Positions 2,944 to 31,010 of a DNA stretch of 37,827 bases are shown piece by piece (the first letter of the stretch is position 1; each line of letters starts with the position of its first letter). The position numbers were made by a program, and so were the translations under genes. Source of the DNA: Chryseolinea sp. (GTDB taxonomy: Bacteria > Bacteroidota > Bacteroidia > Cytophagales > Cyclobacteriaceae); contig JAICGJ010000037.1 of NCBI GenBank assembly GCA_025923195.1, positions 1-37,827 on the forward strand, read 5' to 3'. The notes beneath the pieces are model-generated. The model did no database searches. It was not told the DNA's origin and saw only the letters and a program-made list of their open reading frames with translations.

Positions 2944-3789
2944 ATGAAACTTCACATCATTGAAACTGGTTTTTTCAAACTTGACGGCGGAGCTATGTTT
3001 GGCGTAGTGCCGAAATCCATCTGGCAGAAGACTAACCCAGCAGATGAAAATAATTTGTGTACATGGGCCATGCGTTGCCTGCTGATTGAGGACGGAAAAC
3101 GCCTTATTCTGATTGACAATGGAATAGGATCAAAACAAAGTGAGAAGTTCTTTAGCTACTATCACCTCCACGGAGCTGTCAGTTTGGTCGATTCATTGCA
3201 TGCCGCTGGGTTTGAAGAGGATGACATTACCGATATGTTCCTCACCCACCTGCATTTTGATCACTGCGGAGGTGGTGTAAGAATTCACAACGGTAAGCCT
3301 GAGCTAACTTTCAAAAATGCCCGGTACTGGTCGAATGCGGATCAATGGGAGTGGGCTATTCATCCGAATCCCAGGGAGAAAGCAAGCTTTCTTAAAGAAA
3401 ATCTAATACCTATGAAGGAGAGCGGCAATCTTCATTTTATAGATACGTCGGCAGCATCGCCTTTTCCACATTTTGACATTGAGTATACTTCTGGCCATAC
3501 TGACAAGATGATGATACCCAAAATCAGAATAGGTGAGAACGTCATTTGTTTTGTAACGGATCTGCTTCCTTCTGTCGGGCATATACCCCTGGCTTACGTG
3601 ATGGGCTATGACACACGCCCGTTGATTACGCTCACGGAGAAGGAGAAGTTCCTGAATGAAGCGGCTGATAATCGGTATATACTTTTTTTTGAGCACGATC
3701 CCGTCAATGAATGTTGCACGGTCAAGAGGACAGACAAAGGCGTGCGGCTGGATCAGGTGTTTAAGTTGAGTGAGGCGGGGCTAAGCTGA
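2944..3789 (+). CDS. MBL-fold metallo-hydrolase
   Basis: This 281-residue cytosolic protein has the metallo-beta-lactamase fold metal motif HLHFDH (His102, His104, Asp106, His107). Later ligands are likely the His of GHTDKM, the Asp of FVTDLLP and the His of FFEHDP near the C-terminus. No signal peptide is present. The family includes lactonases, glyoxalase-II-like enzymes and many uncharacterised hydrolases; the overall layout, with HxHxDHxGG and a long N-terminal lead-in, resembles the AHL-lactonase-like branch, but the substrate cannot be read from sequence. Oddly, the final Ser codon and the TGA stop lie inside the first heptamer of the repeat element that follows, so the last codons appear to be supplied by the element. 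Confidence 0.88.
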   Translation: MKLHIIETGFFKLDGGAMFGVVPKSIWQKTNPADENNLCTWAMRCLLIEDGKRLILIDNGIGSKQSEKFFSYYHLHGAVSLVDSLHAAGFEEDDITDMFLTHLHFDHCGGGVRIHNGKPELTFKNARYWSNADQWEWAIHPNPREKASFLKENLIPMKESGNLHFIDTSAASPFPHFDIEYTSGHTDKMMIPKIRIGENVICFVTDLLPSVGHIPLAYVMGYDTRPLITLTEKEKFLNEAADNRYILFFEHDPVNECCTVKRTDKGVRLDQVFKLSEAGLS

Positions 3790-3911
3790 CAGCTGACAGC
3801 TTACGGCTTACAGCGAACAGCTCAGGCGTGCAGACTTTGTAGGCTTGTACGTAGTTGACATGAACCTTGGCGCAGGTACTGTGTTGACCATCATACTAGC
3901 TGTCAGCTGAA
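3784..3911. repeat. Heptamer-armed post-stop element 1, copy a
   Basis: The left arm is six in-phase heptamers from 3784 to 3825: AGCTGAC, AGCTGAC, AGCTTAC, GGCTTAC, AGCGAAC, AGCTCAG. A core of about 70 bp follows, then a right arm with AGCTGTC and AGCTGAA (3898-3911). AGCTGACAGCT in the left arm and AGCTGTCAGCT at 3898-3908 are exact reverse complements. The core is largely repeated in copy b. Confidence 0.85.
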
Positions 3912-3996
3912 CCAGCTAAACGCTTGCGCGAGCGGAACTTGCAAACATATACGCAAAGGATATGAACAGTTTTATCTCAGAGACTTTATTGACGCT

Positions 3997-4132
3997 AGCT
4001 TACAGCTTACGGCTTACAGCGAACACCTCAGGGCGTGCAGACTTTGTAGGCCTGTACGTGATTGACATGAACCTTAGCGCAGGGGCGTTATTGACCATCA
4101 TACTAGCTGTCAGCTGTGGGCTGTCAGCTGTC
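3997..4132. repeat. Heptamer-armed post-stop element 1, copy b
   Basis: This is a second, diverged direct copy of the 3784-3911 element. The left arm 3997-4031 reads AGCTTAC, AGCTTAC, GGCTTAC, AGCGAAC, ACCTCAG. The core shares long runs with copy a (for example GCGTGCAGACTTTGTAGG and TTGACCATCATACTAGCTGT). The right arm 4105-4132 is four in-phase heptamers AGCTGTC, AGCTGTG, GGCTGTC, AGCTGTC. It ends 5 bp before the ATG of the phospholipase gene, so that gene's leader lies in repeat DNA. The 3912-3996 spacer between copies shows no gene. Confidence 0.85.
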
Positions 4133-4137
4133 CACTC

Positions 4138-4899
4138 ATGAAAATCGGTCTCGCTTTGTCAGGAGGAGGGGCAAGGGGTATTTCCCATTTAGGCGTTCTT
4201 AAAGCCTTGGAAGAATTCGGCGTACAGATCGACTGCATTTCGGGAACAAGCACGGGTGCTCTGATTGGCGCGCTGTATTCTTATGGCCTTTCACCGGAAA
4301 AAATCTTAGAGACCTTTATCAACACGCGCATCTTTACTTCGCTGCGCCCGGCCTGGACCTGGACTGGACTGGCAAATGTGAATGGGCTACAAGAGGTGCT
4401 GCTGAAAGTGATGCCAGAAAATAACTTCCAATCCCTTAAGATCCCTGTAACCATCGTCGCAACAAACTTAAAGAAGGGCAGACCTGAATATTTTACTTCG
4501 GGTGAATTGGTAGTTCCATTGCTTGCCTCCTGTTGTGTGCCTGTATTATTTAGTCCTATCAACATCGATGGAGAAGTCTATGTAGATGGAGGAATTATGG
4601 ATAACCTGCCTGCAGACTGTATCCGTAGAGAATGTGACCTCGTGATCGGTTCAAGCTGCAATCATGTCAGCAGCGAATTTGATGTCAAAAATTTCCGGTC
4701 CGTGATTGAACGCAGCCTGATGATTGCCATCAGCGGCAATACCGTGATCAGCAAACACCTTTGTGATGTTTTGATAGAACCGCCTGAACTCGGTAAGGTC
4801 AGCGCATTCGATTTGAGTGATCCGCGCCGACTTTTTGATATTGGATATGCCTTTGCAAAAACCAACTATGACAAACATAGTTTCGAAATTAGTAAATAG
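4138..4899 (+). CDS. Patatin-like phospholipase family protein (RssA-like)
   Basis: This 253-residue protein has the patatin catalytic set: the oxyanion-hole glycine motif SGGGARG (residues 8-14), the nucleophile elbow GTSTG (36-40, Ser38), and the catalytic Asp in DGG (Asp150). Patatins are Ser-Asp dyad lipid acyl hydrolases. The short single-domain form without signal peptide resembles the cytosolic RssA/YchK group, whose physiological substrate is poorly defined. The ATG at 4138 is chosen because the motif begins only a few residues later, as is usual. The gene lies 5 bp downstream of a repeat element, with no recognisable Shine-Dalgarno sequence, so the repeat arm forms its immediate upstream region. 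Confidence 0.92.
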   Translation: MKIGLALSGGGARGISHLGVLKALEEFGVQIDCISGTSTGALIGALYSYGLSPEKILETFINTRIFTSLRPAWTWTGLANVNGLQEVLLKVMPENNFQSLKIPVTIVATNLKKGRPEYFTSGELVVPLLASCCVPVLFSPINIDGEVYVDGGIMDNLPADCIRRECDLVIGSSCNHVSSEFDVKNFRSVIERSLMIAISGNTVISKHLCDVLIEPPELGKVSAFDLSDPRRLFDIGYAFAKTNYDKHSFEISK

Positions 4900-5237
4900 G
4901 TGATTTTGACGTTGTATTCAACTGTCCAGAGCAAGCAATATTCACAAATTAGCCAGCAGGACGCCAAGACCCAAAGTATCGCGAAGTGGAATCTCCCAAC
5001 GATTATCATCCAGGATAAAGTCTAACTCATTTAATCAATGAACGGCTAAAATGCATTTTGCGCGCAAGGCTCACCGTTGTGCGACTGGATATTCAAAGAC
5101 ATAAGTGTTATATTCGAAGAGACCTTTTGATCTTTGCTTCCGTAGGTTTGCAATGGCCGAACTATACCCAACATTGGCAAACAACCCTTTTAGTGCTTTT
5201 GACTAAAGTAGTCAATTCAAAAAACAACCAACCTTAT
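4900..5237. other. Intergenic region with possible promoter and small palindrome
   Basis: No convincing gene is visible in these 338 bp. An open frame runs through from 5058 into the next gene, but it starts at TTG and would place a signal peptide 60 residues into the protein. TAGGTTTG at 5143-5150 fits TAnnTTTG. GACTAAAGTAGTC at 5201-5213 is a 13-bp palindrome just before the barrel gene and could be an operator; both are weak calls. Confidence 0.35.
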
Positions 5238-5828
5238 ATGAAAAAAATTACAATCCTTGCAATTGTTATTTGTTCCACTTTTGGAGCATACGCCCAGTAT
5301 AGCAAGGGGCGAATGCTTGTCGGCGGCAGCCTGAGTTTTTCTGCTGAAACTGAAAAAACAAAGTATGACGGAAACACACAGACTGATGGTAAATGGACCA
5401 GCTTTTCCTTCGAGCCCCAATTCGGCTATTTTGTGATCGATAATTTAGCCGTGGGTGCTAGCCTTGACCTTGGGCTTAGCAAGTGGAGAGATGATGATGA
5501 CAGCGATGATGACTATACATCGACGTCTATAGAATTTCGGCCCACTGTTCGTTATTACTTGCCACAGAATATTTTCTTTCAGGGTCAAGTGGCTTTCGGA
5601 TCTTCCAAATATAAATACGGAAGTGGAAATGTGGATGAAGATAAATACAGCAATTCCGGTTTCACGCTCGGTGTCGGCTACGCCTATTTCTTAAACGATA
5701 ACATCGCAATTGAACCTTTGATAGGGTACGGCTCATGGGGAGAGAAAGACAAAGACACAGACGTAAAGTATGTAGATAATGGTCTCTTCCTGCGAATAGG
5801 GTTCCAAATCTACCTAGATGAATTTTAG
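5238..5828 (+). CDS. Outer membrane beta-barrel protein
   Basis: The start is placed at the ATG at 5238 because it opens a clear signal peptide, MKKITILAIVICSTFGAYAQ, with cleavage after AYA; the frame is open further upstream but that stretch is unlike protein. The 196-residue product has alternating hydrophobic/polar strands with aromatic girdle residues (FSFEPQFGYFVI, VRYYLPQNIFFQGQVAFG, GFTLGVGYAYFL) and ends in a strand with LFLRIGFQIYL, consistent with a small 8-strand outer membrane barrel of the OmpA/OmpW-like porin group. One loop is very acidic (WRDDDDSDDDY, near residues 83-93), possibly binding cations. The role is unknown. A terminator follows directly, and a second barrel gene lies downstream. 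Confidence 0.8.
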   Translation: MKKITILAIVICSTFGAYAQYSKGRMLVGGSLSFSAETEKTKYDGNTQTDGKWTSFSFEPQFGYFVIDNLAVGASLDLGLSKWRDDDDSDDDYTSTSIEFRPTVRYYLPQNIFFQGQVAFGSSKYKYGSGNVDEDKYSNSGFTLGVGYAYFLNDNIAIEPLIGYGSWGEKDKDTDVKYVDNGLFLRIGFQIYLDEF

Positions 5829-5869
5829 TATCTCGATAAATTCTGGGATTAACAGACAACAAAATGATA

Positions 5870-5900
5870 AAACCTCTGTTTAAATAGCAGGGGTTTTTTA
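5870..5900 (+). terminator. Rho-independent terminator after the barrel gene
   Basis: AAAACCTCTG pairs with CAGGGGTTTT (one mismatch) around a TTTAAATAG loop, followed by a T-rich run. It lies 42 bp after the stop of the gene ending at 5828. Confidence 0.75.
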
Positions 5901-5947
5901 TTGGGGCTCAATTTTTGCCCCAGCAATTTTTAAAATTACATGCTTCT

Positions 5948-6577
5948 ATGAAACAGATTATTATTACACTATTTTTTGTAACGACTACCTTGCTTTCGTT
6001 TTCTCAAACGCAATTTGCCATTGGAATAAAAGCAGGGCCCAACTTTGCAACTATTGACTCAGACGCAAGCGCCGTTCAAAATTATGAGAACCGAACGGGA
6101 TGGCACGCTGGCGCTTTTCTCCAGATTCGTGGTGAAAAAATTGGATTTCAGCCCGAGGTAATATTCTCCCAACAGGGTTCGGAATTTAAGTACAGTACAT
6201 CCAATGCGTCGCTAGAACAAAATTTTAGCTACGTCAATATCCCACTTATTGTAAAACTCTATACAGTTGCCGGCCTTAACTTGCAGGTAGGTCCGCAAAT
6301 TGGATTCCTGACTTCCGCTGAGAGAGAAGATTACGCATCGGGACAAAGTGGACCAATAACCGAGCAGGATATTAAGGACGATCTTAAGAAAGTAGATTTT
6401 AGCCTCGGACTTGGTGTTGGTTGGGATCTTCCATTTGGCCTTACGCTCGACGGACGCTACAACTGGGGACTTACCGACAACGATGATGGCGCTACTACCA
6501 ATAGTGGAGCTCCTATCGGTGAAATAAAAAATCAAGTATGGCAGATTTCAGTAGGCTATAAGTTATTCAAAAATTAA
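5948..6577 (+). CDS. PorT-family outer membrane beta-barrel protein
   Basis: The ATG at 5948 opens a signal peptide (MKQIIITLFFVTTTLLSFSQ); the upstream open frame is discarded. The 209-residue protein begins after cleavage with FAIGIKAGPNFATI, the typical first strand of the 'outer membrane beta-barrel' PorT-like family of Bacteroidota, and continues with alternating strands such as GWHAGAFLQIRGEKIGFQPEV, FSYVNIPLIVKLY and LNLQVGPQIGFL. It ends with QVWQISVGYKLF, a C-terminal strand typical of BAM substrates. The family is widespread and mostly uncharacterised; PorT itself is a factor of the type IX secretion system, but most paralogues are not. It has a strong terminator of its own and converges with tyrS. 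Confidence 0.85.
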   Translation: MKQIIITLFFVTTTLLSFSQTQFAIGIKAGPNFATIDSDASAVQNYENRTGWHAGAFLQIRGEKIGFQPEVIFSQQGSEFKYSTSNASLEQNFSYVNIPLIVKLYTVAGLNLQVGPQIGFLTSAEREDYASGQSGPITEQDIKDDLKKVDFSLGLGVGWDLPFGLTLDGRYNWGLTDNDDGATTNSGAPIGEIKNQVWQISVGYKLFKN

Positions 6578-6597
6578 ATAAGACGACAGGACACCAG

Positions 6598-6631
6598 TAA
6601 AAAAGCCACCGGTTTCGGTGGTTTTTTATTT
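6598..6631. terminator. Bidirectional terminator between convergent genes
   Basis: GCCACCG and CGGTGGT form a stem around GTTT, with an A-run on the left and a T-run on the right, so it can act on both strands. It separates the PorT-like gene (ending 6577) from tyrS (ending 6630) and overlaps the tyrS stop. Confidence 0.85.
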
Positions 6632-7916
6632 AATCCACTTTTATCAGGTAATAGTTCTTTTTTCCTTTTTGGGCCAGCAGGTATTTATTCTGAAGCAGTA
6701 CAAATGACCCCTTCGCGTTAGCATCTTCTATCTTTGTTTTGTTAATACTAACTCCTCCTGCCTGTATCATTTTTCTGGCCTCACCCTTCGATGTAAATAC
6801 AAAGCCATTTGTCGTTACTGACAACAAGTCGGTGACGTTAGCATGATTTTCAAACGCCGATTTACTAATTGTGGTTTGCGGCACACCTTCAAACACAGCC
6901 AACAAAGTCTCTTCGTTTAAGCTTTGCAGTTCTTCTGTAGTGGAATTTCCAAAGAGAATATTGGAAGCTTTGACGGCGAGATTAAACTCCTCTTCTGTGT
7001 GTACCCTTACCGTAACATCTTTCGCCAAAACTTGTTGTAGTTTTCTTTGGTGAGGGGCAATCGCGTGTTCGTTCACCAATGATTCAATTTCGTCCTTACT
7101 TAACTGCGTAAATATCTTAATAAAGTTGGCAGCATCTTCATCCGAAGTATTCAGCCAGTATTGATAGAACTTGTAGGGGGAAGTTTTCTTGGGATCAAGC
7201 CAAATGTTTCCTTCCTCCGTCTTGCCAAACTTTGAGCCATCGGCTTTTGTAATGAGCTTGGTCGTCAATGCGTAGGCCTCACCGTTGGCTTTTCTGCGGA
7301 TCAATTCCGTTCCAGTAACAATATTTCCCCATTGATCGCTGCCTCCCATTTGAAGTTTACAATTCTTATTTGTGTACAACCAATAGAAATCGTATCCCTG
7401 TACCAGTTGATACGTAAATTCAGTAAATGACAACCCCGCCTCCAGACGCTTTTGTACGGAATCCTTCGCCATCATGTAGCTGACAGTAATATGCTTTCCA
7501 ATATCTCGGATAAAGTCCAGGAACAAGTAATTTTTAAACCAATCGTAATTGTTGACCATTTCTGCGGCATTGCTTCCCTTGAAATCCAGGAATCGCTCCA
7601 GTTGATTCTTCACACACGCGACATTGTGCTGCAGGATGTCTTCGGATAAGAGATTTCTTTCTGTGGACTTTCCTGACGGATCGCCTACCATGCCGGTTGC
7701 GCCGCCAACGAGTGCGTAGGGTTTATGTCCAGCCCGCTGAAAGTTCAATAGTGTCATGATTTGAGCGAGATGCCCGATGTGCAGAGAGTCGGCAGTAGGA
7801 TCAAAGCCAATATATCCGGCAACATTTTCCCTTAACAAAAGTTCTTCAGTTCCCGGCATTACGTCGTGCAATATTCCGCGCCAGCGCAGCTCCTCCACAA
7901 AATTCTTTGTAGCCAT
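6630..7916 (-). CDS. tyrS: Tyrosyl-tRNA synthetase
   Basis: This 428-residue class I aminoacyl-tRNA synthetase charges tRNA-Tyr with tyrosine using ATP. The HIGH motif appears as LHIGHLAQ after GFDPTADS (about residues 45-50), followed by a typical TyrRS tyrosine-binding region ([23 protein letters not shown]). The KMSKS loop appears as KFGKTEEGN, the usual TyrS variant. A C-terminal S4-like RNA-binding domain includes [19 protein letters not shown]. Length and order match bacterial TyrS. The gene has its own -7 box upstream and sits 65 bp downstream of the carbonic anhydrase-like gene on the same strand; no terminator is visible between them, so some readthrough is possible. Confidence 0.98.
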
Positions 7917-7931
7917 TGGTTAGATTTGGCA

Positions 7932-7939
7932 CAAATATA
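7932..7939 (-). promoter_or_regulatory. -7 promoter box for tyrS
   Basis: On the minus strand this reads TATATTTG, an exact TAnnTTTG, 15 nt upstream of the tyrS ATG. CTTGC lies a short distance upstream as a weak -33 candidate. Confidence 0.6.
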
Positions 7940-7981
7940 AAAAAGCAAGTTTGTGGAACGAGTAAAAAATTGCGGAAGAAA

Positions 7982-8608
7982 TTATGCAAGAGAGGTCACT
8001 TGCCTGAGTCGTCGGTTTGCTTCCATGGAAAATACCTCCTGTAATGCTCCGGTGTCGAGGTCAAAGTACCAACCTAGCAAAACAGGATGATCACTTTTCT
8101 CCCAAGCCTTCCGGATCACATCCAGCTCACTGAGATTTTCAATTTGTGCGCGAATGTTCAATTCACATAGACGCCTGGTTCGCTGTTCAAAATCCATGTC
8201 CCAGAGCTCTTCCTTATTGTTCTCGTATAAAGCATTGAGTTCGTTCAACCATCTTTTGACATATGGGCGGTCATCGTTTCCCAATATCACATCTTGAATT
8301 CCGGAACAATGGCTATAGCCGCATACGATTATGAATTCAACACGGGCCATTTGAACGGCGTCCTCTATGGTAGCCATAAGACTCAGATCATCTGGCCGAA
8401 TCTGGCAGCCCATGTTTTGATACTCGAGAACTTCGCCTGGATCAGCATTGATAAGCTCTCCAACTGGCACCAGGCTATCGATCGATCCAATCCATAAAAT
8501 ATCGGGTGTATGCATGCCAGAGAGACGTTCGAAATAAGCCTGATCCAGGCTTAGTTTCTCCATCACCCATGCTTTACTTTCCAGGAACATTTTTTCTTTT
8601 GGTGTCAT
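7982..8608 (-). CDS. Beta-carbonic anhydrase homologue lacking key active-site residues (probable pseudoenzyme)
   Basis: This 208-residue protein aligns without gaps to the neighbouring true carbonic anhydrase through the active-site region. Position by position: zinc ligand Cys42 is Ser (WIGSIDSLVP instead of WIGCSDSRVP), dyad Asp44 is kept, dyad Arg46 is Leu, zinc ligand His98 is Tyr, and Cys101 is kept (VCGYSHCSG instead of VCGHYGCGG). Two of three protein zinc ligands and the dyad Arg are therefore lost, so ordinary CO2 hydration is unlikely. The rest of the fold, including the C-terminal GWYFDLDTGAL strand, looks intact. The ATG overlaps the SulP stop in an ATGA, indicating translational coupling. 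A regulatory or scaffold role for the transporter is inferred. His100 might give altered metal binding. Confidence 0.85.
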   Translation of the reverse strand: MTPKEKMFLESKAWVMEKLSLDQAYFERLSGMHTPDILWIGSIDSLVPVGELINADPGEVLEYQNMGCQIRPDDLSLMATIEDAVQMARVEFIIVCGYSHCSGIQDVILGNDDRPYVKRWLNELNALYENNKEELWDMDFEQRTRRLCELNIRAQIENLSELDVIRKAWEKSDHPVLLGWYFDLDTGALQEVFSMEANRRLRQVTSLA

Positions 8609-10161: not shown

Positions 10162-10833
10162 CTATGCCTCCTCTGCTTCAACCCGCTTATGCTCCCCAAC
10201 GTTATTCTCAACACGATATATAGGAGGTAACTTCAAAGTATTATCAAAGTTCACCCCGAGATCTTTTATTAATCCCGTCTTCAGGCTGTAAACCCAGCCG
10301 TGAACTTTAGGACTATTTCTTTTTCTCCAGGCGTTTTGAATTATGGTTGTTTTTGTAAGATCTAATACTTGTTCAATGACATTTAGCTCGACGAATCTGT
10401 CGAATCGTTGTTCTTCATTCTTGATAGCATCCAGTTCGGTGCTATGCATCCGGTAAACGTCCTTGATAAAACGGAGCCAGTTGTCAACCAGTCCGTATTG
10501 TTGATTGTCCATCGCTGCTTTTACACCACCGCAGCCGTAGTGGCCGCAAACGATGACGTGTTTAACTTCCAGAATGTTCACTGCGTAATCGAGAACACTT
10601 AGCAAATTCATATCGGAGTGTACGACCATGTTTGCAATATTCCGGTGAACAAATATGTCACCAGGGCGCGTATTGGTAATTTCGTTTGCAGGTACACGGC
10701 TGTCAGAACATCCTATCCATAAGAACTGAGGGCTTTGACCCTCCGACAATTTTTTAAAATATTCAGGGTCGTGTTCCAATTGGTTCTGCACCCATTTTTT
10801 ATTTCCTTCTAGTAGTGAGTTGTATAATTTCAT
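10162..10833 (-). CDS. Beta-class carbonic anhydrase
   Basis: This 223-residue enzyme interconverts CO2 and bicarbonate. All active-site residues are visible: zinc ligands Cys42, His98 and Cys101 and the Asp44-Arg46 dyad, in WIGCSDSRVPANEI and VCGHYGCGG. These positions equal the numbering of E. coli Can, so the start is well supported. The gene lies between two SulP transporter genes (13 bp after the upstream one, 0 bp before the next), which indicates a coupled bicarbonate uptake/interconversion operon. The C-terminal extension after GWVYSLKTGLIKDLGV is typical of Bacteroidota homologues. Confidence 0.96.
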   Translation of the reverse strand: MKLYNSLLEGNKKWVQNQLEHDPEYFKKLSEGQSPQFLWIGCSDSRVPANEITNTRPGDIFVHRNIANMVVHSDMNLLSVLDYAVNILEVKHVIVCGHYGCGGVKAAMDNQQYGLVDNWLRFIKDVYRMHSTELDAIKNEEQRFDRFVELNVIEQVLDLTKTTIIQNAWRKRNSPKVHGWVYSLKTGLIKDLGVNFDNTLKLPPIYRVENNVGEHKRVEAEEA

Positions 10834-10846
10834 TATTTGATATGAT

Positions 10847-12157
10847 TTAACCTGTAATAAGTTCCCCCTCTGCTTCAGAGATCTGTTCGAAATCAGATTC
10901 GACGTCCTGAACCTTCCAGAAGTATTTTGAAATATAAAAGAATGCAGTGCCCGTAAGAACGGCGATGTTTAGGTCTATGAGGACGGTAATGACTGTTGTG
11001 TAAATAATGAATAGAAGCTGTATGTTTCTGACAGGTGAATTGAACCACTGATACTGAAGGTAGTATGTGGGGAAATCCTTGTCGAAGACATCCAGCCCTG
11101 CTTTCAGCAGCACACCTACAAAAACTGCTGCTGGCACGAGGGCGAGGTAATCTTTAAAGAGCAGAATGCTAAGTAGGGCGAATAACCCTATCAAAACGCC
11201 AGCGAGTCGGGTCTGGGCTCCTTCTTTAATCAAAAGAACCGAACGTATTGTGGCCTGGGCGCCTGGTATACCCTGGAAGATCCCGGACATTCCATTTGCT
11301 AACCCCTGGGCTACTAGCTCCCTATTCAGATTGGATTTCTCTCGCGTCATCCGGTCTATGATTAACGCAGTCAGCAGCGAATCGAGATATGCCAAAAGTG
11401 TAAGCTGCAGCGCAAAAGGAATCGCCATGATGATGTAGCGTTGTTGCAGAATTTCGGATGGAAAATAGTTTGCAAGCATAGCGCCAAATTCGGTGAGTGA
11501 GCCAATGGTATTCCCCAATTGGATTCTCTCAAGTGATAGTCCCAGTGCAAGGCTGATGCCTGTCATAATAATAATGCTCCATAACACACCTGAGATCAGG
11601 GAACGGATTTGTTTCCGGATATTGAGCTTTTTTAACACCCACACAATTCCATAGATCATCCCAAACGTTATCAGCGCCAATATGATATTTAGCACAATAC
11701 CGCCTTCCATAATTGGCTTGCCATTGATGGCCAAGACTTTCACGAACTGATCTTTCCAGATCAGCAATGCTATCCCATTCATGAAACCGAGAATAACAAC
11801 GTTGGGAACGTACGAAATCAGTTTTCCCAGCCTGACGGCTCCAGCCACCAGCAAACAAACTGCATTCAAGAGGAAGACCAGCGTAATGAATTGCTCAGCG
11901 AGTGCTTTCTCAGGAAAATTATCATAGGCAAAGGCAACCGTGAGTGCCGAAACGGCAGTCATTGGTGCCGTTGGTCCGGAAGCTTGTAATCTTGTTCCTC
12001 CAAAAGTTGAAGCGATAATTGGTATGACCGCAGCTCCGATCATACCTGCAAATGCGCCACGGCCGGACATAGCACCAAATGCGGCGCCTAGAGAAATGGC
12101 AGCGAAACTTACTGTAAGACCCGCAGTAACGTCGCCGAGGAATCGTTTTCCATCCAT
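10847..12157 (-). CDS. SulP family inorganic anion transporter (no STAS domain)
   Basis: This 436-residue membrane protein has the SulP core from its N-terminus (RFLGDVTAGLTVSFAAISLG; SGPTAPMTAVSALTV) through about 12-14 hydrophobic segments, but stops shortly after the last one (YISKYFWKVQDVESDF), so the usual C-terminal STAS domain is absent. SulP members usually carry STAS, so this is a short form. It lies 13 bp upstream of the carbonic anhydrase gene, suggesting inorganic carbon as cargo; sulfate cannot be excluded, although no sulfate assimilation genes are nearby. It differs clearly in sequence from the other SulP, so it is not a recent duplicate. Confidence 0.9.
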   Translation of the reverse strand: MDGKRFLGDVTAGLTVSFAAISLGAAFGAMSGRGAFAGMIGAAVIPIIASTFGGTRLQASGPTAPMTAVSALTVAFAYDNFPEKALAEQFITLVFLLNAVCLLVAGAVRLGKLISYVPNVVILGFMNGIALLIWKDQFVKVLAINGKPIMEGGIVLNIILALITFGMIYGIVWVLKKLNIRKQIRSLISGVLWSIIIMTGISLALGLSLERIQLGNTIGSLTEFGAMLANYFPSEILQQRYIIMAIPFALQLTLLAYLDSLLTALIIDRMTREKSNLNRELVAQGLANGMSGIFQGIPGAQATIRSVLLIKEGAQTRLAGVLIGLFALLSILLFKDYLALVPAAVFVGVLLKAGLDVFDKDFPTYYLQYQWFNSPVRNIQLLFIIYTTVITVLIDLNIAVLTGTAFFYISKYFWKVQDVESDFEQISEAEGELITG

Positions 12158-12820: not shown

Positions 12821-13324
12821 ATGAAACAACCTGAATCATTGGAACTTGTCGCTGAATTTCATAAAACATTCAAGCATCCTATCCTTCCTGCTCCGGGAAT
12901 ACCTGCTGAGAATCGTTGCAAATTGAGGGTCGCTTTAATAGCTGAGGAGTTGAAAGAATTGGAGGTAGCTATCCTTGAAAAAGATATTGTAGAAGTAGCC
13001 GATGCGTTATGCGATATTCAGTACGTGCTATCCGGGGCGATCCTAGAATTTGGGCTGGGCGAAAAATTCAAGTCCTTATTTGAGGAAGTTCAACGTTCAA
13101 ACATGAGCAAGGCCTGCCAGTCGGAACAAGAAGCAATTGACACCGTTGAGCATTATCAGAAAAAAGATGGTACTGAATGTTACTACCACAAAGAAGGGGA
13201 CAGATGGCTCATTTATCGGAAATCAGATAACAAGACACTAAAATCCATCAACTATAGCCCGGCAAACCTCGATAAGATTTTAAAAGACGCTTCACTCCCG
13301 GTTCACACAAAGAACTCGAACTGA
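12821..13324 (+). CDS. MazG-like nucleoside triphosphate pyrophosphohydrolase
   Basis: This 167-residue protein contains the all-alpha NTP-PPase motif: EELKELEVAILEKD (EExxE) followed by VEVADALCDIQYVLSG (ExxD), which together bind Mg2+ and the triphosphate. The N-terminal FHKTFKHPILPAPGIPA resembles the PRA-PH/MazG-like subgroup found in phages and bacteria. Such enzymes hydrolyse (d)NTPs to NMP and pyrophosphate in house-cleaning. After residue 120 there is an additional stretch with KDGTECYYHKEGDRWLIYR, beta-rich in appearance, which is not part of the catalytic bundle and has no assigned function. The 3' end overlaps the 3' end of a minus-strand small gene by 22 bp. Confidence 0.8.
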   Translation: MKQPESLELVAEFHKTFKHPILPAPGIPAENRCKLRVALIAEELKELEVAILEKDIVEVADALCDIQYVLSGAILEFGLGEKFKSLFEEVQRSNMSKACQSEQEAIDTVEHYQKKDGTECYYHKEGDRWLIYRKSDNKTLKSINYSPANLDKILKDASLPVHTKNSN

Positions 13325-13536
13325 AAAACAGTATCCTGTCCCTTTTGTTGCAAGGGATTGATAGCCAATATGTGTGAATCGTTATAGGCCTTGATGAATT
13401 CGGTGCGGCTGATCCGCAGCTTGCTCTGACCAGGTTTAATGCGATGGTACTGCATTCTCCCGGAAGAATTGGCAGTTGCGCTGTACATATAACTGAACTG
13501 TAGAGCGATAGGTGAGGGAACGTACCTCATTTTCAC
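13303..13536 (-). CDS. Small hypothetical protein, second gene of an overlapping pair
   Basis: This is a 77-residue product of unknown family (starts MKMRYVPSPIALQFSYMY, ends QDTVFQFEFFV). The composition is protein-like, with a basic middle part (HRIKPGQSKLRIS). Its start overlaps the stop of the upstream small gene by 4 bp (ATGA), which supports both being translated. The 3' end overlaps the end of the convergent MazG-like gene. No transmembrane segment or motif is evident. Confidence 0.5.
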   Translation of the reverse strand: MKMRYVPSPIALQFSYMYSATANSSGRMQYHRIKPGQSKLRISRTEFIKAYNDSHILAINPLQQKGQDTVFQFEFFV

Positions 13537-20454: not shown

Positions 20455-20892
20455 ATGCTTACTAAGAAATTTATATCGTACCTGGTCGCTGTACTATCGA
20501 TTCTCGCATTGGCGTGTTCGACAAAGAAAGATGATCACAATCATCATGAAGATCAGGCAGCGGCTGGCGACGAGTGGAAGGAAATGGATGAGTTCCATAT
20601 CGTTATGGCCGACGCTTTTCATCCGTATAAAGATTCTTCAAACCTGGAGCCTGCGAAGAATAATGCAGGTGCCCTGGTAGAAGCCGCCGATAAGTGGGCG
20701 CAGGCTCCGCTTCCATCAAAATTCGAGGGAGATGACGAAATAAAATTTAAGCTCAACCAGCTTAAGGTGGACGCATCCACCTTTGAAGGAATTGTTAAAT
20801 CCGGAGATGATAAATCGATCGGACAATCATTGACCAAGCTGCATGATCTCTTTCATGAAATCCAGGAATCGTGGTATGAGGAACGCGAGTAG
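20455..20892 (+). CDS. Small helical lipoprotein, function unknown
   Basis: The start is placed at the ATG at 20455 because it opens a lipoprotein signal peptide, MLTKKFISYLVAVLSILALAC, with lipobox LALAC (Cys21); the ATG at 20413, overlapping the ABC transporter stop, would put 14 extra residues ahead of it. The mature part begins with a His/Asp-rich linker (DDHNHHEDQ) that might bind metal. About 110 helical residues follow, ending LTKLHDLFHEIQESWYEERE, reminiscent of four-helix-bundle proteins of the cytochrome b562/c' type, but without a CxxCH haem motif. Close linkage to the ABC transporter suggests it is an accessory envelope component. The stop codon is immediately followed by a heptamer-armed repeat element. 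Confidence 0.75.
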   Translation: MLTKKFISYLVAVLSILALACSTKKDDHNHHEDQAAAGDEWKEMDEFHIVMADAFHPYKDSSNLEPAKNNAGALVEAADKWAQAPLPSKFEGDDEIKFKLNQLKVDASTFEGIVKSGDDKSIGQSLTKLHDLFHEIQESWYEERE

Positions 20893-21170
20893 TTAAGTTA
20901 TCCGTTATCCGTTATCCGTTATCCGTTGTCTGTTATCCGTTATCCGTTAACAGGGGGAGTGAGCAAGGGTGTGTAGCTCGATTACAACTCGAATGGGAAA
21001 TAATCGACAAGATTAAAAATTCATGATGTTACCCGATTGGCATCCCGTACTAATTGTGATCGAGCGACACACCCTTCCCCGCACCCACTATTAACTATTA
21101 ACGGATAACAGACAACGGATAACGGATAACGGATAACTATTAACGGCTAACTATTAACGGCTAACGGATT
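20893..21170. repeat. Heptamer-armed post-stop element 2 (TTATCCG type)
   Basis: The left arm 20898-20953 holds eight in-phase heptamers, mostly TTATCCG, with one TTGTCTG and a last TTAACAG. The right arm 21087-21170 holds twelve in-phase heptamers (ACTATTA, ACGGATA, ACAGACA, ACGGCTA and so on). A 39-bp stretch at 20904-20942 is the exact reverse complement of 21099-21137. Inside, 20965-20982 and 21059-21076 form a second inverted repeat with one mismatch in 18. It fills most of the 330-bp gap between the lipoprotein stop and the permease gene; 21171-21222 is AT-rich and probably carries the promoter. Confidence 0.93.
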
Positions 21171-21222
21171 AGGGATAAACTATTTCTTTTTATATTTCCA
21201 TCTTGAGTATAAAGTAAAGTAC

Positions 21223-22770: not shown

Positions 22771-22802
22771 TCGAGTTTAAAGCTGGTATAAATCTAATTT
22801 CC

Positions 22803-25878: not shown

Positions 25879-25930
25879 GTCCTCCATAACGGCGTTCGGA
25901 AGTGCGCCGTCGTGAAAAGGAGTACCCTTC

Positions 25931-27142
25931 TCACTTGCAGATCTCCTTTTTCATTTTGTCGGTAACCGCGAGGCCGAGCGATTCGGCCTTCTTGAGATCC
26001 TGGCAGGCCTCTACGGATTTCTTCGCCCGCTGCCGCGCGATTGAACGGTTATAGAAGGCCGCTGCATAGTCTGGATTGAACGTAATGGCTATCGTATAAT
26101 CTTCAATTGCCTCCTCGATGCGCCCTTGCTTGCTGAGCACATTTCCGCGGTTGAGCCATGCTTTTTCAAATTTTTCATTTAGTTCTATCGCCTTGGTGTA
26201 ATCTGAATAAGCACCCTTCAGGTCATCCAGTTTCTCCCTGACATGCCCGCGATTAAGCCAGATCTCCGGGTCTTTAGGCTGGATTTCCAATGCCCTGTCA
26301 TAATCTTCGAGCGCGCCCTTGTAAAACCCGCCTTCCATACGTTGGAACGCGCGCTCAAGGTAAGGATACAGCATGCTGGAATCGCTTTCTATCGCTTTTT
26401 CAAGCTCATCTTCCATAGTGCTCGACTCGCCTTTCTTTCGTTTTAAGGCAGCGATGTTATGCAAGGCAAGCGCATGGTCTGGGTGTAACGATAAGGCGGT
26501 CTGATAGTCCTGCATGGCGGTTGCATCATTCAAACCTTCCTTGGCTATTCCGCGATTCACAAAATAATCAGCCTCCTTGCTTTTGAGTCGGATGGCGGAG
26601 TCGAGCCAGGTTATAGCGCTCTGATAATTACCTAGTTTTGTTTCAACGAGACCCAGGTAATTAAAGATCTGGGGCTTGATGTTACCTTGTGCAGTTAGAA
26701 TTTGGTTCGAACCGGTTGCTGAGGCGGACTGGTTAAAGAAGATTGTTTGTGTTTCTCCTGGTGGGAGCGTAAGCAGTTTCAGTAGATCAGCTTTTGCTTG
26801 ATCGTATAGTCCCAGTTGATATCGTACCGTCGCCCTGCTAAACAGGGCTTCAGGCTGATCTGGCTTTAATTCGAGATAAATGTTATAGTCGGTGTTGGCT
26901 CCCCTCAGATCATCCAACTGCTCGCGGGCAGATCCACGGGTAAAGTAGGCATCGGCAAAACCAGGGCTCTCCTGCAGGCATTTGTTCAGATATTCAAGCG
27001 CAAGCTTATAGTTGCCCGCGTTATGGGCCGCTTCACCCTGCTCATACAATTTTTTCGAATCTGCGCGTTTATCCTGCGCAAATAAAGCCGTTGGGATGAA
27101 CAAGGCGACGAGTGCCAGCGCCTCATAAAATTTGCGTAGCAT
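25931..27142 (-). CDS. Secreted tetratricopeptide repeat protein
   Basis: The ATG at 27142 is chosen because it begins a signal peptide (MLRKFYEALALVALFIPTALFAQ). Upstream ATGs in frame (27187, 27226) would add an unlikely leader. The 403-residue product is built from about nine or ten TPR units; the clearest are AGNYKLALEYLNKCL, DLRGANTDYNIYLEL, DLKGAYSDYTKAIELN and GRIEEAIEDYTIAITFNPDYAAAF in parts. TPR arrays are protein-interaction scaffolds; here it would act in the periplasm. The gene is on the opposite strand to its neighbours and sits between ligD and the TetR-like gene, so no functional link to NHEJ is implied. A 6-bp inverted repeat lies in the short gap after ligD (25889-25910). 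Confidence 0.85.
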   Translation of the reverse strand: MLRKFYEALALVALFIPTALFAQDKRADSKKLYEQGEAAHNAGNYKLALEYLNKCLQESPGFADAYFTRGSAREQLDDLRGANTDYNIYLELKPDQPEALFSRATVRYQLGLYDQAKADLLKLLTLPPGETQTIFFNQSASATGSNQILTAQGNIKPQIFNYLGLVETKLGNYQSAITWLDSAIRLKSKEADYFVNRGIAKEGLNDATAMQDYQTALSLHPDHALALHNIAALKRKKGESSTMEDELEKAIESDSSMLYPYLERAFQRMEGGFYKGALEDYDRALEIQPKDPEIWLNRGHVREKLDDLKGAYSDYTKAIELNEKFEKAWLNRGNVLSKQGRIEEAIEDYTIAITFNPDYAAAFYNRSIARQRAKKSVEACQDLKKAESLGLAVTDKMKKEICK

Positions 27143-27258
27143 CGTTATGATCCTGACCAGTCTTGCAGGGATTTTGAATACGTACATGATGCTGAAATTA
27201 ACGAAATTATCACGAGCAAAGTGCAAACCATTTTAATTGAATTTCAGTTAATAGAGTC

Positions 27259-27933
27259 ATGGAAACCGCCAAAAAAACTTCCCGCAGATCCGAGAGCAAG
27301 GCTTCGGACGACAAGATCAAGGCTGCCTATATCGAGTCTGTGCTCACACATGGATCCAGGCCTGTTTCAGTGTACAAGTTCTGCGTGGATATTGGCATCA
27401 AGGAGGAGGAGTTTTATAATCGATTTGGGTCATTTGACGGGCTTGAAAACTATATCTGGAAGGGTTTTATTGACAAAACGCTTGGCCGTTTGAAGGCCGA
27501 CAAGGCTTTTCAAAGTTTTATCACCCGCGAAAAAATTTTAGCATTTTATTTTACCCTGCTGGAAGAATTGAAATCCAGTCGAAGCTATGTCATATTTCAG
27601 CTGGAGCACTCCAAGAAATTTGAGCTTGTTCCCGAATACATCAAGGGGTTTAAGGCTGAGTTCGAGTCGTTTTTTGAGTCAGTCCTCAATGTGGCAAAAG
27701 GGAAGGGAGAAGTTGCCACGCGACCGGTAATTGATAAACGTTATCCACAACTTTTTTGGCTGCACCTGGGATTTATACTTCTATTTTGGAAACAGGACAG
27801 CAGCGCTGGATTTGAAAAAACAGATGCCGCAATTGAAAAATCCGTTAACCTGGCATTTGATCTAATTGGAAAAGGTGCGGTTGACTCGGCAATAGATTTT
27901 GCCAAGTTTTTATATCAAAACAAAATCAAATAA
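27259..27933 (+). CDS. TetR-like transcriptional regulator
   Basis: The 224-residue protein has an N-terminal TetR-type HTH (about residues 15-65: IKAAYIESVLTHG, VSVYKFCVDIGIKEEEFYN, RFGSFDGLENYIW) in which the usual 'YYHFxSKxxL' appears as FYNRFGSFDGLE. A helical ligand-binding-like domain follows. The N-terminus is basic (KKTSRRSESK). It lies 9 bp upstream of the AarF-like kinase gene and is probably co-transcribed with it, a pairing I believe is recurrent in Bacteroidota. The signal sensed and the operator are not known. Confidence 0.8.
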   Translation: METAKKTSRRSESKASDDKIKAAYIESVLTHGSRPVSVYKFCVDIGIKEEEFYNRFGSFDGLENYIWKGFIDKTLGRLKADKAFQSFITREKILAFYFTLLEELKSSRSYVIFQLEHSKKFELVPEYIKGFKAEFESFFESVLNVAKGKGEVATRPVIDKRYPQLFWLHLGFILLFWKQDSSAGFEKTDAAIEKSVNLAFDLIGKGAVDSAIDFAKFLYQNKIK

Positions 27934-27942
27934 CAAGCCCGC

Positions 27943-29235
27943 GTGAAAGAATTTGATCGAATACCCGTCTCGAAGGTGCAACGGGCTTCTAAGTTTATAA
28001 CTACTGGTGCCAAGATCGGCTCAAATTATCTTAAACATTATGGTAAAAAGCTTATCAATGGCGAAGTGAGCCGTGACGAACTGCACCTTGATAACGCCAC
28101 CGACATCTATAACTCGCTGAGCGAGTTAAAAGGGGGAGCGTTGAAAGTAGCTCAGATGCTCAGCATGGATAAGAATCTCCTGCCAACAGCATACCAGCAA
28201 AAGTTTGCTATGGCTCAGTACAGCGCACCACCGTTGTCTTATCCACTCGTTGTGAAGACATTTCAGAAGTACTTTGGAAAGGGACCTGCGGAGATCTTTG
28301 ATTCATTTACAACGAAGGCGACGAACGCGGCCTCTATGGGCCAGGTTCATCAGGCAGTTCTGAGAGGCAAAAAGCTCGCGGTCAAGATTCAATACCCGGG
28401 CGTGGGTGACAGTGTTAAGTCCGATTTAGCCATGGTGAAGCCCATAGCGCTGACGATGTTTAAGCTAAACCCCGTGGAGTATGATGAGTTTATTCAGGAG
28501 GTTGAGTCCAGGATGCTGGAAGAAACGGATTATGCGCTGGAGCTTCGGCGGTCAATGGAACTCTCAGCCAAGACTCGTCATTTGAAAAATATCAAATTCC
28601 CGACCTACTATCCCGAGTATTCCTCTGATAAAATTCTGACCATGGACTGGATCGAAGGCAGGCCTCTTGGTGAAGTGCTGAATGAAACAATTCCGCAGAA
28701 GGAGCGAGACAAACTTGGTCAGGCGCTTTGGGATTTTTACCACTTTCAAATGCACACTTTGAAGGCCGTTCATGCCGATCCGCATCCAGGGAATTTTATC
28801 ATTACCGATGATTATCAGCTGGGTATCATTGACTTTGGTTGCGTAAAGGTCATCCCGTCAGAGTTTTACCAGGTCTATTTTCAACTGCTTGAAGAGGATG
28901 TGCTGACAAACCTCCAAAAGCGGGATAAAACCTTCCGGGAGCTGCGGTTCATTCATGCACAGGATACAAAGAAGGAAGTGGAATTTTTCACAGGTATATT
29001 CGTGAAGTTGGTGGAGCTATTGGGCAGACCATTCCGTTCAGAGACGTTTGACTTTGCAGATAATGCATATTTTGATGAGCTGTATTCTTTTGGAGAGAAG
29101 CTTTCGACAATGAAAGAGCTGCGCGAATCAAAAAGAGCGCGAGGTGTGGGAGAGGCTGTTTACCTCAACCGTACCTATTTCGGTTTGTATACGATATTGC
29201 ATGATTTGAAGGCGAGGATAAATACGAATTGGTAG
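27943..29235 (+). CDS. AarF/ABC1/UbiB family atypical kinase
   Basis: The 430-residue protein uses a GTG start at 27943. It has the UbiB-family marks: the KxGQ-like motif SELKGGALKVAQMLSMD (the Gln after the Lys-Gly segment), the alanine-rich loop NAASMGQVHQA, the catalytic Lys of LAVKIQYPGV, the Glu of EVESRMLEETDYALE, and the catalytic region HADPHPGNFI with the metal Asp in GIIDFGCVK. UbiB proteins are ATPases/kinases that support quinone or isoprenoid lipid metabolism in some bacteria; the precise role in this organism is inferred at most. It follows the TetR-like regulator with a 9-bp gap. Its TAG stop is followed directly by a repeat element. Confidence 0.93.
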   Translation: MKEFDRIPVSKVQRASKFITTGAKIGSNYLKHYGKKLINGEVSRDELHLDNATDIYNSLSELKGGALKVAQMLSMDKNLLPTAYQQKFAMAQYSAPPLSYPLVVKTFQKYFGKGPAEIFDSFTTKATNAASMGQVHQAVLRGKKLAVKIQYPGVGDSVKSDLAMVKPIALTMFKLNPVEYDEFIQEVESRMLEETDYALELRRSMELSAKTRHLKNIKFPTYYPEYSSDKILTMDWIEGRPLGEVLNETIPQKERDKLGQALWDFYHFQMHTLKAVHADPHPGNFIITDDYQLGIIDFGCVKVIPSEFYQVYFQLLEEDVLTNLQKRDKTFRELRFIHAQDTKKEVEFFTGIFVKLVELLGRPFRSETFDFADNAYFDELYSFGEKLSTMKELRESKRARGVGEAVYLNRTYFGLYTILHDLKARINTNW

Positions 29236-29350
29236 TTTAAAGATTATAGTTTAAAAGTGTTTAAAGTTCAAGGTTTCAGGCTGCCAATCTTGTGCCCTGT
29301 AGCCCGCTTTGTCGCATACGTAACGTAAACCTTAAACTTGAAACTTGGAA
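29236..29350. repeat. Heptamer-armed post-stop element 3
   Basis: The element starts at the first base after the AarF-like stop. Left arm heptamers include TTTAAAG, ATTATAG, then TTTAAAG, TTCAAGG, TTTCAGG (29260-29280); the right arm 29322-29349 reads AACGTAA, ACCTTAA, ACTTGAA, ACTTGGA. Positions 29259-29276 and 29327-29344 are reverse complements with two mismatches in 18. The core of about 45 bp is unique in the window. Confidence 0.8.
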
Positions 29351-29404
29351 CATTTTTTATATCTTAGCTCCCGCCTGATTCACTTTTTAATCTAACTTAA
29401 TGTT

Positions 29405-30256
29405 ATGAGAGCAATCTGGAAAGGACACATTCAATTCTCCCTCGTTACCATTCCCATCCGTATTTATAACGCCATTGACTCAGGTCAGACGATAAGTTTT
29501 AACCTGTTGTCGAAGGAGGGCCACAACCCCGTCAGTTATGAAAAGAAAGATAAGGTAACGGGACAGACACTTAGGGCGGAAGACATTGTCAAAGGATATC
29601 AATATGAGCCTGGTCAATATGTGATCATCGAGCAGGAGGACTTCGATAAAGTCAAATTGAAGAGCGAGAGAGTGATCGAAATCCAGGGTTTTGTTAGTGC
29701 TGGTGAAGTACATCCGACCCTGTACGAATCGCCCTATTACCTTGGTCCCGACGGAGACATGGCTTCTAAGACCTATGGACTTCTGAGCCAGACATTAAAG
29801 GAAACTGGCAGAATTGCCGTGGGAAAAGTTGTGCTGCGTGACCGCGAAACTCCTGTTCTGATTTCGCCCCACGAAGGTGGAATGGTGATGTATAGGCTGC
29901 GATATCCCAATGAAGTCCGAAGCATCCGCGAGGTACCTCAGCTACTGGATGTCAAGACCGATAAGGAACAACTCAAATTAGCGAAGACGTTAGTCGACTC
30001 GATGACCACCAAATTCGCTAACATCGAGATGAAGGATCATTATTACGATGCCCTCAAGGCAATAATCGATGCCAAAGTATCAGGCAAAGAAATTGTATCC
30101 ATTGTTGAGGAAGCGCCCAAAGTGGTAGATATAATGACGGCGCTGAAGGCCAGTATCGATGCTGCGAAGAAGCCGATGGAAAAAGCCAAGGGAACATCAG
30201 CAAAAAAGGAAAAGGCCGAGAAGCCAGCCAAGTCGGTGCGCCGAAAAGCGAGCTGA
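29405..30256 (+). CDS. ku: Ku homodimer NHEJ protein
   Basis: The 283-residue protein starts MRAIWKGHIQFSLVTIPIRI, the standard opening of bacterial Ku. Core blocks are ISFNLLSKEGHNPVSYEKKD, VTGQTLRAEDIVKGYQYE, SPYYLGPDGDMASKTYGLL and REVPQLLDVKT. Ku forms a ring-shaped homodimer that binds broken DNA ends and recruits LigD. The C-terminal 40 residues are strongly basic (AAKKPMEKAKGTSAKKEK, then VRRKAS), like the Lys-rich tails that add DNA binding in other bacterial Ku proteins. It lies 3.5 kb downstream of ligD on the same strand, with three unrelated genes between. The start at 29405 is supported by family N-terminus; a repeat element occupies much of the gap before it. Confidence 0.96.
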   Translation: MRAIWKGHIQFSLVTIPIRIYNAIDSGQTISFNLLSKEGHNPVSYEKKDKVTGQTLRAEDIVKGYQYEPGQYVIIEQEDFDKVKLKSERVIEIQGFVSAGEVHPTLYESPYYLGPDGDMASKTYGLLSQTLKETGRIAVGKVVLRDRETPVLISPHEGGMVMYRLRYPNEVRSIREVPQLLDVKTDKEQLKLAKTLVDSMTTKFANIEMKDHYYDALKAIIDAKVSGKEIVSIVEEAPKVVDIMTALKASIDAAKKPMEKAKGTSAKKEKAEKPAKSVRRKAS

Positions 30257-30306
30257 TCAAAAATCTATGGCTGAATATTTATTCGATGCAGTTAAGAGAT
30301 AACAAT

Positions 30307-30314
30307 TAACTTTG
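30307..30314 (+). promoter_or_regulatory. -7 promoter box immediately before a start codon
   Basis: TAACTTTG is an exact TAnnTTTG, 4 nt upstream of the ATG at 30319. ATTTATT at 30277-30283 is a loose -33 candidate. The transcript would be leaderless or nearly so. Confidence 0.5.
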
Positions 30315-30318
30315 CACG

Positions 30319-30915
30319 ATGGCGAAGATCATCAAGTTTCCTATTCCTACACCAGAAAAATTCGGACCTCAGCGGGTTCGAAACAGGAAGGATCAGCGTC
30401 GTGACCCCACGGGCCAGCTAAATCTGTTTACGGGGGGCAAGGTTGTTAAATTAAACCAACTCACGATCTTCGAAGAAGCCCTGCAACTAGATGAGCAGGG
30501 AAACAAGCAGCGCGCCAGAATCGGTTACCTCCAGGCCATTGAACAGAACGATTCAGTTGCCGACGCATACTGCAATCTCGGAATTATTGAATCCACCGCC
30601 GGCGCGCATGCAAAAGCCTTGGATTGCTTTACACAGTGCCTCAAGACTGACCCACGCCACTTCGAAGCGCATTATAATTTAGCAAACCTTTATGGGGAGA
30701 TTGGGAACTTCGGATTGGCAAAAGCGCACTACGAAATTTCAATCCAGTTAGAACCATCATTTCCCAACAGTTACTTCAATTTGGGCCTTACGCTTGCCAT
30801 GAACAAGGAATTTGAGCTGGCTGTTGATGCCATAAAGCAATTTAGAAAAATTGCCCAGCCGGCGGACCAAGAGCTTGCTGATAACCTCATTCAAAAGTTG
30901 ACTGCTGCTTTGTAG
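30319..30915 (+). CDS. Tetratricopeptide repeat protein (cytosolic)
   Basis: The 198-residue protein has no signal peptide. After a basic N-terminal 45 residues (RVRNRKDQRRDPTGQLNLF), it has about four TPR-like units: ALQLDEQGNKQRARIGYLQA, ADAYCNLGIIESTAGAHAKA, FEAHYNLANLYGEIGNFGLA and SYFNLGLTLAMNKEFELA. TPR folds bind partner proteins; the partner is unknown. The ATG is supported by the -7 box just ahead, although that placement leaves almost no leader. The TAG stop is followed immediately by a repeat element. Confidence 0.85.
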   Translation: MAKIIKFPIPTPEKFGPQRVRNRKDQRRDPTGQLNLFTGGKVVKLNQLTIFEEALQLDEQGNKQRARIGYLQAIEQNDSVADAYCNLGIIESTAGAHAKALDCFTQCLKTDPRHFEAHYNLANLYGEIGNFGLAKAHYEISIQLEPSFPNSYFNLGLTLAMNKEFELAVDAIKQFRKIAQPADQELADNLIQKLTAAL

Positions 30916-31010
30916 GTGTTTAAGTGTTTACGTGCTCGTGTTGGCGCAGCAAACTATCTGCAATGCGCCTGAACTTAGACACTTAAACACCTGAACACCT
31001 GAACACATTT
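30916..31010. repeat. Octamer-armed post-stop element 4
   Basis: It begins at the first base after the TPR gene stop and fills almost the whole gap to the convergent gene. The left arm reads GTGTTTAA, GTGTTTAC, GTGCTCGT; the right arm from 30979 reads ACACTTAA, ACACCTGA, ACACCTGA, ACACATTT. Positions 30916-30930 and 30976-30990 are reverse complements with one mismatch in 15, and GGCGCA (30943-30948) pairs with TGCGCC (30964-30969) inside. It could act as a terminator-like hairpin for both genes, though it lacks a T-run. Confidence 0.82.

Follow-up and report, generated by a model that had tools for sequence, protein, structure and literature searches.

The 37,827-nucleotide stretch of Chryseolinea sp. 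DNA analysed here (contig JAICGJ010000037.1 of GenBank assembly GCA_025923195.1, hereafter the window) raises the question of why four of its intergenic spacers open, at or just past a stop codon, with degenerate tandem words of 7 or 8 nt that return in reverse complement beyond a core, and why the words differ from one locus to the next. We found that the four loci represent only a few of the many such sites across the genome: a 7/8-nt rhythm is confined to spacers and spans many different words, and the spacer repeats of this bacterium are several kinds of short non-coding dispersed repeats, often with inverted arms.

The source genome is a 6.57 Mb draft in which the window is contig C37. 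We sampled 838 kb, made up of the window and the opening 20 kb of each of contigs C2-C36 and C38-C42, called 669 genes with a hexamer script and scanned every spacer no shorter than 20 bp (459 spacers, 90 kb) for tandem arrays. At a score of at least 12, period 7 accounted for 37 arrays in the spacers, period 14 for 26 and period 8 for 9, the full counts for periods 4 to 20 being 1, 0, 1, 37, 9, 0, 2, 0, 2, 2, 26, 3, 2, 0, 2, 0 and 1; shuffled spacers yielded 0.3-2.4 arrays per period, and the 669 genes contained a single array of period 7. At a score of at least 11, period-7/8 arrays were present in 28 of the 459 spacers, in which at least eleven kinds of word could be distinguished by eye.

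The loci that raised the question are laid out in the window as follows.

3784..3915, no strand assigned: locus 1, copy 1, with an AGCTGAC/CAGCTTA heptamer left arm, a core and an AGCTGTC right arm.
3997..4132, no strand assigned: locus 1, copy 2, a direct repeat of copy 1; the ATG of a patatin-like gene (4138) follows 5 nt on.
20897..20949, plus strand: left arm of locus 2, GTTATCC heptamers, 4 nt past a stop codon.
20950..21086, no strand assigned: core of locus 2, with its own inner inverted repeat, resembling other copies of the GTTA family.
21087..21176, plus strand: right arm of locus 2, TAACGGA/TAACTAT heptamers, the reverse complement of the left-arm type.
29236..29273, plus strand: left arm of locus 3, degenerate GTTTAAA/GTTCAAG directly past a stop codon; weak, and read by eye.
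29326..29351, plus strand: right arm of locus 3, a period-7 array.
30916..30934, plus strand: left arm of locus 4, GTGTTTAA octamers directly past a stop codon.
30973..31006, plus strand: right arm of locus 4, ACACTTAA/ACACCTGA-type octamers.

An earlier note on this DNA had placed all four loci at or within about 5 bp of a stop codon, and the open reading frame (ORF) positions bear this out. At locus 1 the stop TGA (3787-3789) lies inside the first heptamer, so the metallo-beta-lactamase-fold gene upstream (2944-3789) takes its stop codon from the element, whereas in the congeners inspected that stop lies in ordinary sequence; the array of locus 2 starts at 20897, 4 nt beyond a stop ending at 20892, and the arms at 29236 and 30916 begin immediately after stops. 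Tandem Repeats Finder (TRF) called period-7 arrays at 3784-3822, 3997-4020, 4105-4132, 20897-20949, 21087-21102 and 21099-21178 and period-8 arrays at 30916-30934 and 30979-31006, and called none at 29236. When the best array in each spacer was scored against 400 Markov shuffles, no shuffle matched the period-7 score (period-8 at locus 4) at any of the four loci, the best-scoring array at 29236 and 30916 being the right arm. Folding against 200 shuffles separated the loci: the hairpin of locus 2 (20893-21178, -141 kcal/mol, z -15.6) and that of locus 4 (30916-31010, z -4.6) were equalled by no shuffle, locus 1 gave z -2.6 at 3990-4135 (2/200 shuffles) and z -1.6 at 3784-3915 (16/200), and locus 3 (29236-29355) gave z -0.9, with 38 of 200 shuffles folding as well. 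Loci 2 and 4 therefore form strong hairpins, locus 1 combines periodicity with a fold of moderate strength, and the hairpin of locus 3 is weak; of the periodic inverted arms described in the earlier note, the periodicity stood at all four loci and the arm pairing best at loci 2 and 4.

Rfam covariance models gave no match in the window at the gathering score. The repeated words of the four loci, read from the sequence and not with a quadruplex program, lack a GGG run and so do not qualify as quadruplex-forming, and GGGTATA-type spacers elsewhere in the source genome come near G-tract units. A Ku gene (29405-30256) lies directly downstream of locus 3, and given this gene we considered whether 7-nt duplications might originate by staggered cutting, fill-in and end-joining. 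Two further short arrays in the window, 36884-36904 and 37182-37202, share the unit GTTAAAAAGC about 300 bp apart.

Stop-codon adjacency extends beyond the window. Across the sample an array edge fell within 10 nt of a stop in 18 of 32 cases, where 5,000 random placements predicted 10.1 (p 0.0004), and within 10 nt of a start in 4 of 24, against 5.8 expected; locus 1 copy 2 and an element in L006 (L labels denote individual genomic stretches) are single cases that adjoin a start codon. Divergent spacers account for 3 of the 28 array spacers (under-used by bases, p 0.02; not significantly so by spacer count, p 0.25) and convergent spacers for 7 (over-used by bases, p 0.01; not significantly so by spacer count, p 0.08). 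The earlier note had treated the loci as a post-stop class and had named, as results that would overturn it, the lack of a post-stop excess and chance low-complexity sequence; the excess is significant and the class exceeds its shuffles, but placement after stops is not universal. The spacer left over at convergent elements was about as long as 91 element-free convergent spacers (Mann-Whitney p 0.62, 0.33; 7 and 10 leftovers, partly read by eye), which speaks against elements replacing spacer rather than adding to it and makes a targeted post-stop mechanism unnecessary. Short spacers together with avoidance of start sites suffice to explain the adjacency.

The arms are often, but not always, paired, and their words recur. 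An inverted partner scoring at least 12 lay in the same spacer for 29 of 49 arrays and in 16 of 28 spacers (spacers counted by hand), a direct partner for 11 of 49 arrays; by eye, some spacers are single-armed and some hold two different arm words (L087:4025, L095:5838, L090:18199). Spacers with two arrays numbered 17, and in 14 of them G was more frequent in the left array than in the right one. With at most one mismatch, TTATCCGTTATCCG had 130+82 matches genome-wide compared with 1+1 for its reversed control, and the AGCTGAC and octamer arms were found again at other loci in the DNA compared here. Matches of spacers outside the GTTA family to other loci span about 23-60 bp; the spacer at L095:14131 has a 152-bp match within its own stretch. 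Arm words thus recur between loci for most array spacers, and the absence of common sequence stressed in the earlier note is true only locally.

Copying is clearest for the family with the layout GTTAnnn...nnnTAAC, to which the locus at 20893 belongs. In a set of pairs biased by the partial choice of loci with a TTATCCG pattern, GTTA preceded TAAC in 25 pairs and followed it in one, with cores of 34-241 bp; five left and some right GTTA arrays had no partner within 350 bp. Bordering the arms on their inner side, CCCAC/CACCC recurs next to the right arm in 17 of 25 elements and GTGGG/GGGTG next to the left one in 12 (at least one side in 21, both sides in 8), motifs that were picked after the sequences had been viewed and that occur in 3.4% and 3.0% of random 45-mers from element-free spacers. 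Contig C5 carries a relative of the core at 20893 with 89% identity over 145 bp, and matches elsewhere are limited to the ends. The variable triplets of the units draw on a small vocabulary (TCC 128, ATA 74, TTA 40, ATC 17, TTC 15, TCA 13). Dispersed copies of this family share terminal inverted repeats, as do miniature inverted-repeat transposable elements (MITEs), with 25 of 26 pairs in one polarity, a feature established for the GTTA words and not for the others. The GTTA family is thus a dispersed, MITE-like, copied family of one polarity, and the suggestion of a mobile element in the earlier note finds its best support here, although neither a mobiliser nor a target duplication was found. 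A four-unit GTTA pattern matched 198+155 times in the source genome and 0, 0, 3, 0 and 0 times in five congeners; it was matched in 20 of 59 relatives and in 127 of 395 genomes of the phylum. Since the reverse-reading control also matched abundantly in certain genomes that carry other heptads, these counts indicate patchiness and not a GTTA rule.

Comparison with relatives (the source genome being G000 and its five congeners G001-G005) suggests that the elements were gained recently. By its ABC1 kinase, the nearest named relative on that one protein is Chryseolinea sp. H1M3-3 (90% identity). The comparison of orthologous junctions that the earlier note had proposed, covered spacers 50-700 bp long from 19 stretches of relatives and three of the source genome, for periods 6-9; with p 0.01 as the cut-off for an array, the relative had a period-7/8 array at 0 of 26 junctions with an element here and at 6 of 64 without one. 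Set against the congeners tested, the elements thus have the look of recent gains. In 1.15 Mb from 66 loci of relatives (710 spacers) there were 26 period-7 arrays at a score of at least 11, whereas shuffles gave 5.0, and the listed arrays scoring at least 13 came from six loci, four rows of N runs being set aside; in 20 congener stretches (343 kb) L171 alone held such an array (one). A different word has bloomed in Chryseosolibacter histidini (the genome of L040), where GGTACGANNTACGANNTACGA matched 74+85 times, with 0 for the control and 0 in G011, G019 and G052. Fifteen of 18 clusters read there are two-armed, some with a common core motif by eye, and 6 of the 11 with a plus-strand gene upstream start 1-11 nt after that gene.

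In light of these results, we propose that inverted-arm repeats are dispersed by copying, that their arms then grow in 7/8-nt steps and that selection governs where they remain, a reading that we consider evenly poised between right and wrong. An arm-bearing palindrome would disperse into spacers in the manner of MITEs or repetitive extragenic palindromic (REP) elements, giving new copies; slippage or unequal exchange, in steps of 7 or 8 nt, would then make its arms longer and more varied. Stop-side placement would come mainly from short spacers and from selection removing insertions near promoters and start sites. If transcribed, an element would fold into a hairpin, either at the 3' end of an mRNA or between the genes of an operon, and any effect of such hairpins may be a by-product or a locally recruited function.

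Several observations weigh against this proposal. Copying alone leaves unexplained why unrelated words share a period of 7 or 8, and plain copying does not predict that 6 of the 28 array spacers, locus 3 included, have no match elsewhere in the DNA compared, nor that outside the GTTA family arms recur there while cores are not shared. The inverted-partner count is tempered by a control in which arrays were compared with up to six other array spacers and which reached 12 for 16 of 49, because some words are common to several loci. Four Y1 transposase loci (2.3-3.3 kb), the only type tested, contained no period-7/8 array at a score of at least 10, and no autonomous copy or transposase was linked to arrays at the Y1 loci examined. 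Target-site duplications were unreadable by eye, the ends being variable and the empty sites diverged. Arrays built of other words at matching places, outside the junction count given above, hint, moreover, at preferred sites: at the hand-picked L024 junction, where the source genome has GTTATCC arms, the congeners G001, G003 and G004 are period-7 with other words, with CCAGGAG/CTCCTGG arms flanking what by eye is a canonical intrinsic terminator in L247 and L249 (G003 and G001, ~1230-1500), and in L031, from Chryseolinea sp. H1M3-3, the ABC1-Ku junction of locus 3 holds an array of period 15 (7+8). The arrays of L031 lie at 11290-11540 and 13095-13330, the other of the two being a period-11 array after the TPR gene.

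A search for a mobiliser or a permissive cause left two candidates rejected. The repeats do not flank the four Y1_Tnp genes, as linkage to REP-associated tyrosine transposases (RAYTs) would have it; by eye, Y1 genes on C146, C295 and C247 (L129, L130, L131) adjoin short palindromes of their own, GTCCC..GGGAC or CCATGGGC..GCCCATGG, apart from heptad arrays. SbcD had no match above the family cut-off in G000-G005 (one below it in G005), and 28 of 59 genomes had a match; however, heptad-rich genomes, defined as those with at least 10 GTTA or reversed-pattern matches counted by hand in the 59 genomes, numbered 7 of 31 without SbcD and 5 of 28 with it, so loss of SbcD is not supported as the permissive cause. 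Locus 1 had no match among phages, and locus 2 had weak matches alone among plasmids (71%, 32% of query), to 6 Borreliella plasmid records.

The alternative that survives best is birth in place, in which polymerase slippage favours steps of 7-8 nt, hairpin-templated strand switching inverts the arms and duplication is only occasional. It would account for a period common to unrelated words and for cores that are mostly unique in the DNA compared; the rare word GTTGTCT, present in both arms of locus 2 and paired in the fold, is in its favour, as is an earlier hypothesis, quoted in PMC4692102, that ties heptamer slippage to polymerase contact size. Yet the GTTA family is copied, its near absence from five congeners would stay unexplained, and the order of units is mirrored between the arms of 25 GTTA elements no more than in shuffled order (0.711 vs 0.722 shuffled, units without GTTA being dropped), a result that also gives no support to a general rule by which one arm templates the other in register. 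We regard birth in place as a minority possibility. A broader conjecture, similarly tentative, is that a process common to Bacteroidota, whether enzymatic or replicative, builds or lengthens inverted arms 7 or 8 nt at a time whatever the word, and leaves each lineage with its own hairpin vocabulary; under it the arms would keep a common strand polarity, which the G-richer left arrays fit. Of the earlier claim that a generating process rather than copying is at work, a word-independent 7/8-nt process is supported, but the copied GTTA family and the recurrent arms are not in keeping with the rest.

Alternatively, the elements may be bidirectional terminators, insulators or mRNA-end protectors selected beside stops. 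Their stop-side adjacency and the strong hairpins of loci 2 and 4 suit such a 3'-end function, and at L145:11881-12110 an element stands where, by eye, G001-G004 show a canonical intrinsic terminator. A strict script nevertheless found canonical terminators at 2 of 32 gene ends in element spacers against 25 of 277 in other spacers of at least 60 bp, which is no difference, so that neither terminator replacement as a rule nor the terminator role raised in the earlier note has statistical support. A terminator is kept beside the element at L087:4937 and, by eye, at L145:15699; right arms are not as a rule followed by a T-run, and the script found no GC-rich stem with T-run in the four window spacers, the T-run of locus 3 following a weak stem. 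The elements are also not conserved at the orthologous junctions compared. The genes flanking locus 1 are ~15-137 bp apart in five congeners by alignment ends (coordinates only for G005), and in the four congeners inspected, with gaps of ~15-62 bp, no heptads were seen by eye. We hold a 3'-end function to be improbable.

Less likely still is that the arrays bind a protein which recognises a short motif at intervals of 7 nt. Most GTTA units keep GTTA while the other three positions vary, although the pattern search itself selects GTTA, and mismatches fall in few columns in 3 of 5 arrays drawn from the GTTA spacers L134, L137:19280 and the window locus at 20893 (p 0.005-0.024). Across 35 arrays, however, conserved columns were no more contiguous than chance (3.23 vs 3.22), which leaves a conserved tetramer with a variable triplet unsupported as a general rule, and the words vary by locus and lineage. 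Chance low-complexity sequence, which the fold of locus 3 taken alone does not surpass, is scarcely credible, being refuted for the class by the period spectrum, the control counts and the four-locus shuffles.

What recurs here is unit length, not sequence: unrelated words, and another word in a related genome, follow one 7/8-nt rhythm and often adopt the same inverted layout. The contrast between blooming genomes (the source and Chryseosolibacter histidini) and congeners nearly without the GTTA pattern offers a direct test in the hunt for a generator. These repeats moreover alter spacers and can replace a stop codon, as at locus 1.

Known repeats offer partial likenesses, and searches of open PubMed Central papers listed no account of word-independent 7/8-nt inverted arms in Bacteroidota. 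REP elements with their RAYT transposases are likewise short extragenic palindromes in many copies (PMC3733652); unlike them, the repeats described here have tandem-unit arms and words that differ between lineages, and no Y1 linkage was found. TAACTGA direct repeats, reported from Beggiatoaceae, cyanobacteria and some Bacteroidetes, with larger heptamer assemblages in Elizabethkingia, share intergenic heptamers and a similar word class (TAACGGA and TAACTAT here); in that report (PMC4679880) the Beggiatoa sets are direct in 169 cases and indirect in one, lie mostly just upstream of starts and are proposed regulator sites, whereas our arms are often inverted, are commoner beside stops and do not favour start codons. 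The BrickBuilt MITE of Porphyromonas gingivalis (PMC4596501) is intergenic with small inverted ends and internal tandem repeats, but is a 23-nt minisatellite between those ends, while here the tandem units themselves form the arms.

The closest known system is that of the GGGAATC / GGGGA(C/T)T heptamers of Xanthomonas and Nostoc, dispersed and with a unit conserved in part (positions 1-4 and 6), as set out in PMC4692102. Like our elements, they are intergenic 7-nt tandem units with inverted pairs close by: in two Xanthomonas genomes 89-93% are intergenic and there are 70 and 75 inverted pairs, so that the lack of inverted arms by which the earlier note set known heptamer repeats (cyanobacterial STRR) apart does not hold for Xanthomonas. 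The same source puts them at a mean of 28 nt from the 5' ORF vs 160 nt from the downstream ORF, with few between divergent ORFs; they are mostly transcribed in one species, on either strand, and their function is given as unknown. It also records that heptamer over-representation in bacteria was noted earlier, slippage being the one hypothesis it quotes. That study, however, dealt with one G-rich, quadruplex-forming word, with most sites between the same genes in two species, while the repeats described here use many words in one genome, few of them with G-runs, include octamers, have in the GTTA family both a core and a motif beside the arms, and show no period-7/8 array at the 26 orthologous junctions compared. 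New relative to known heptamer repeats is the combination of many words with one 7/8-nt rhythm.

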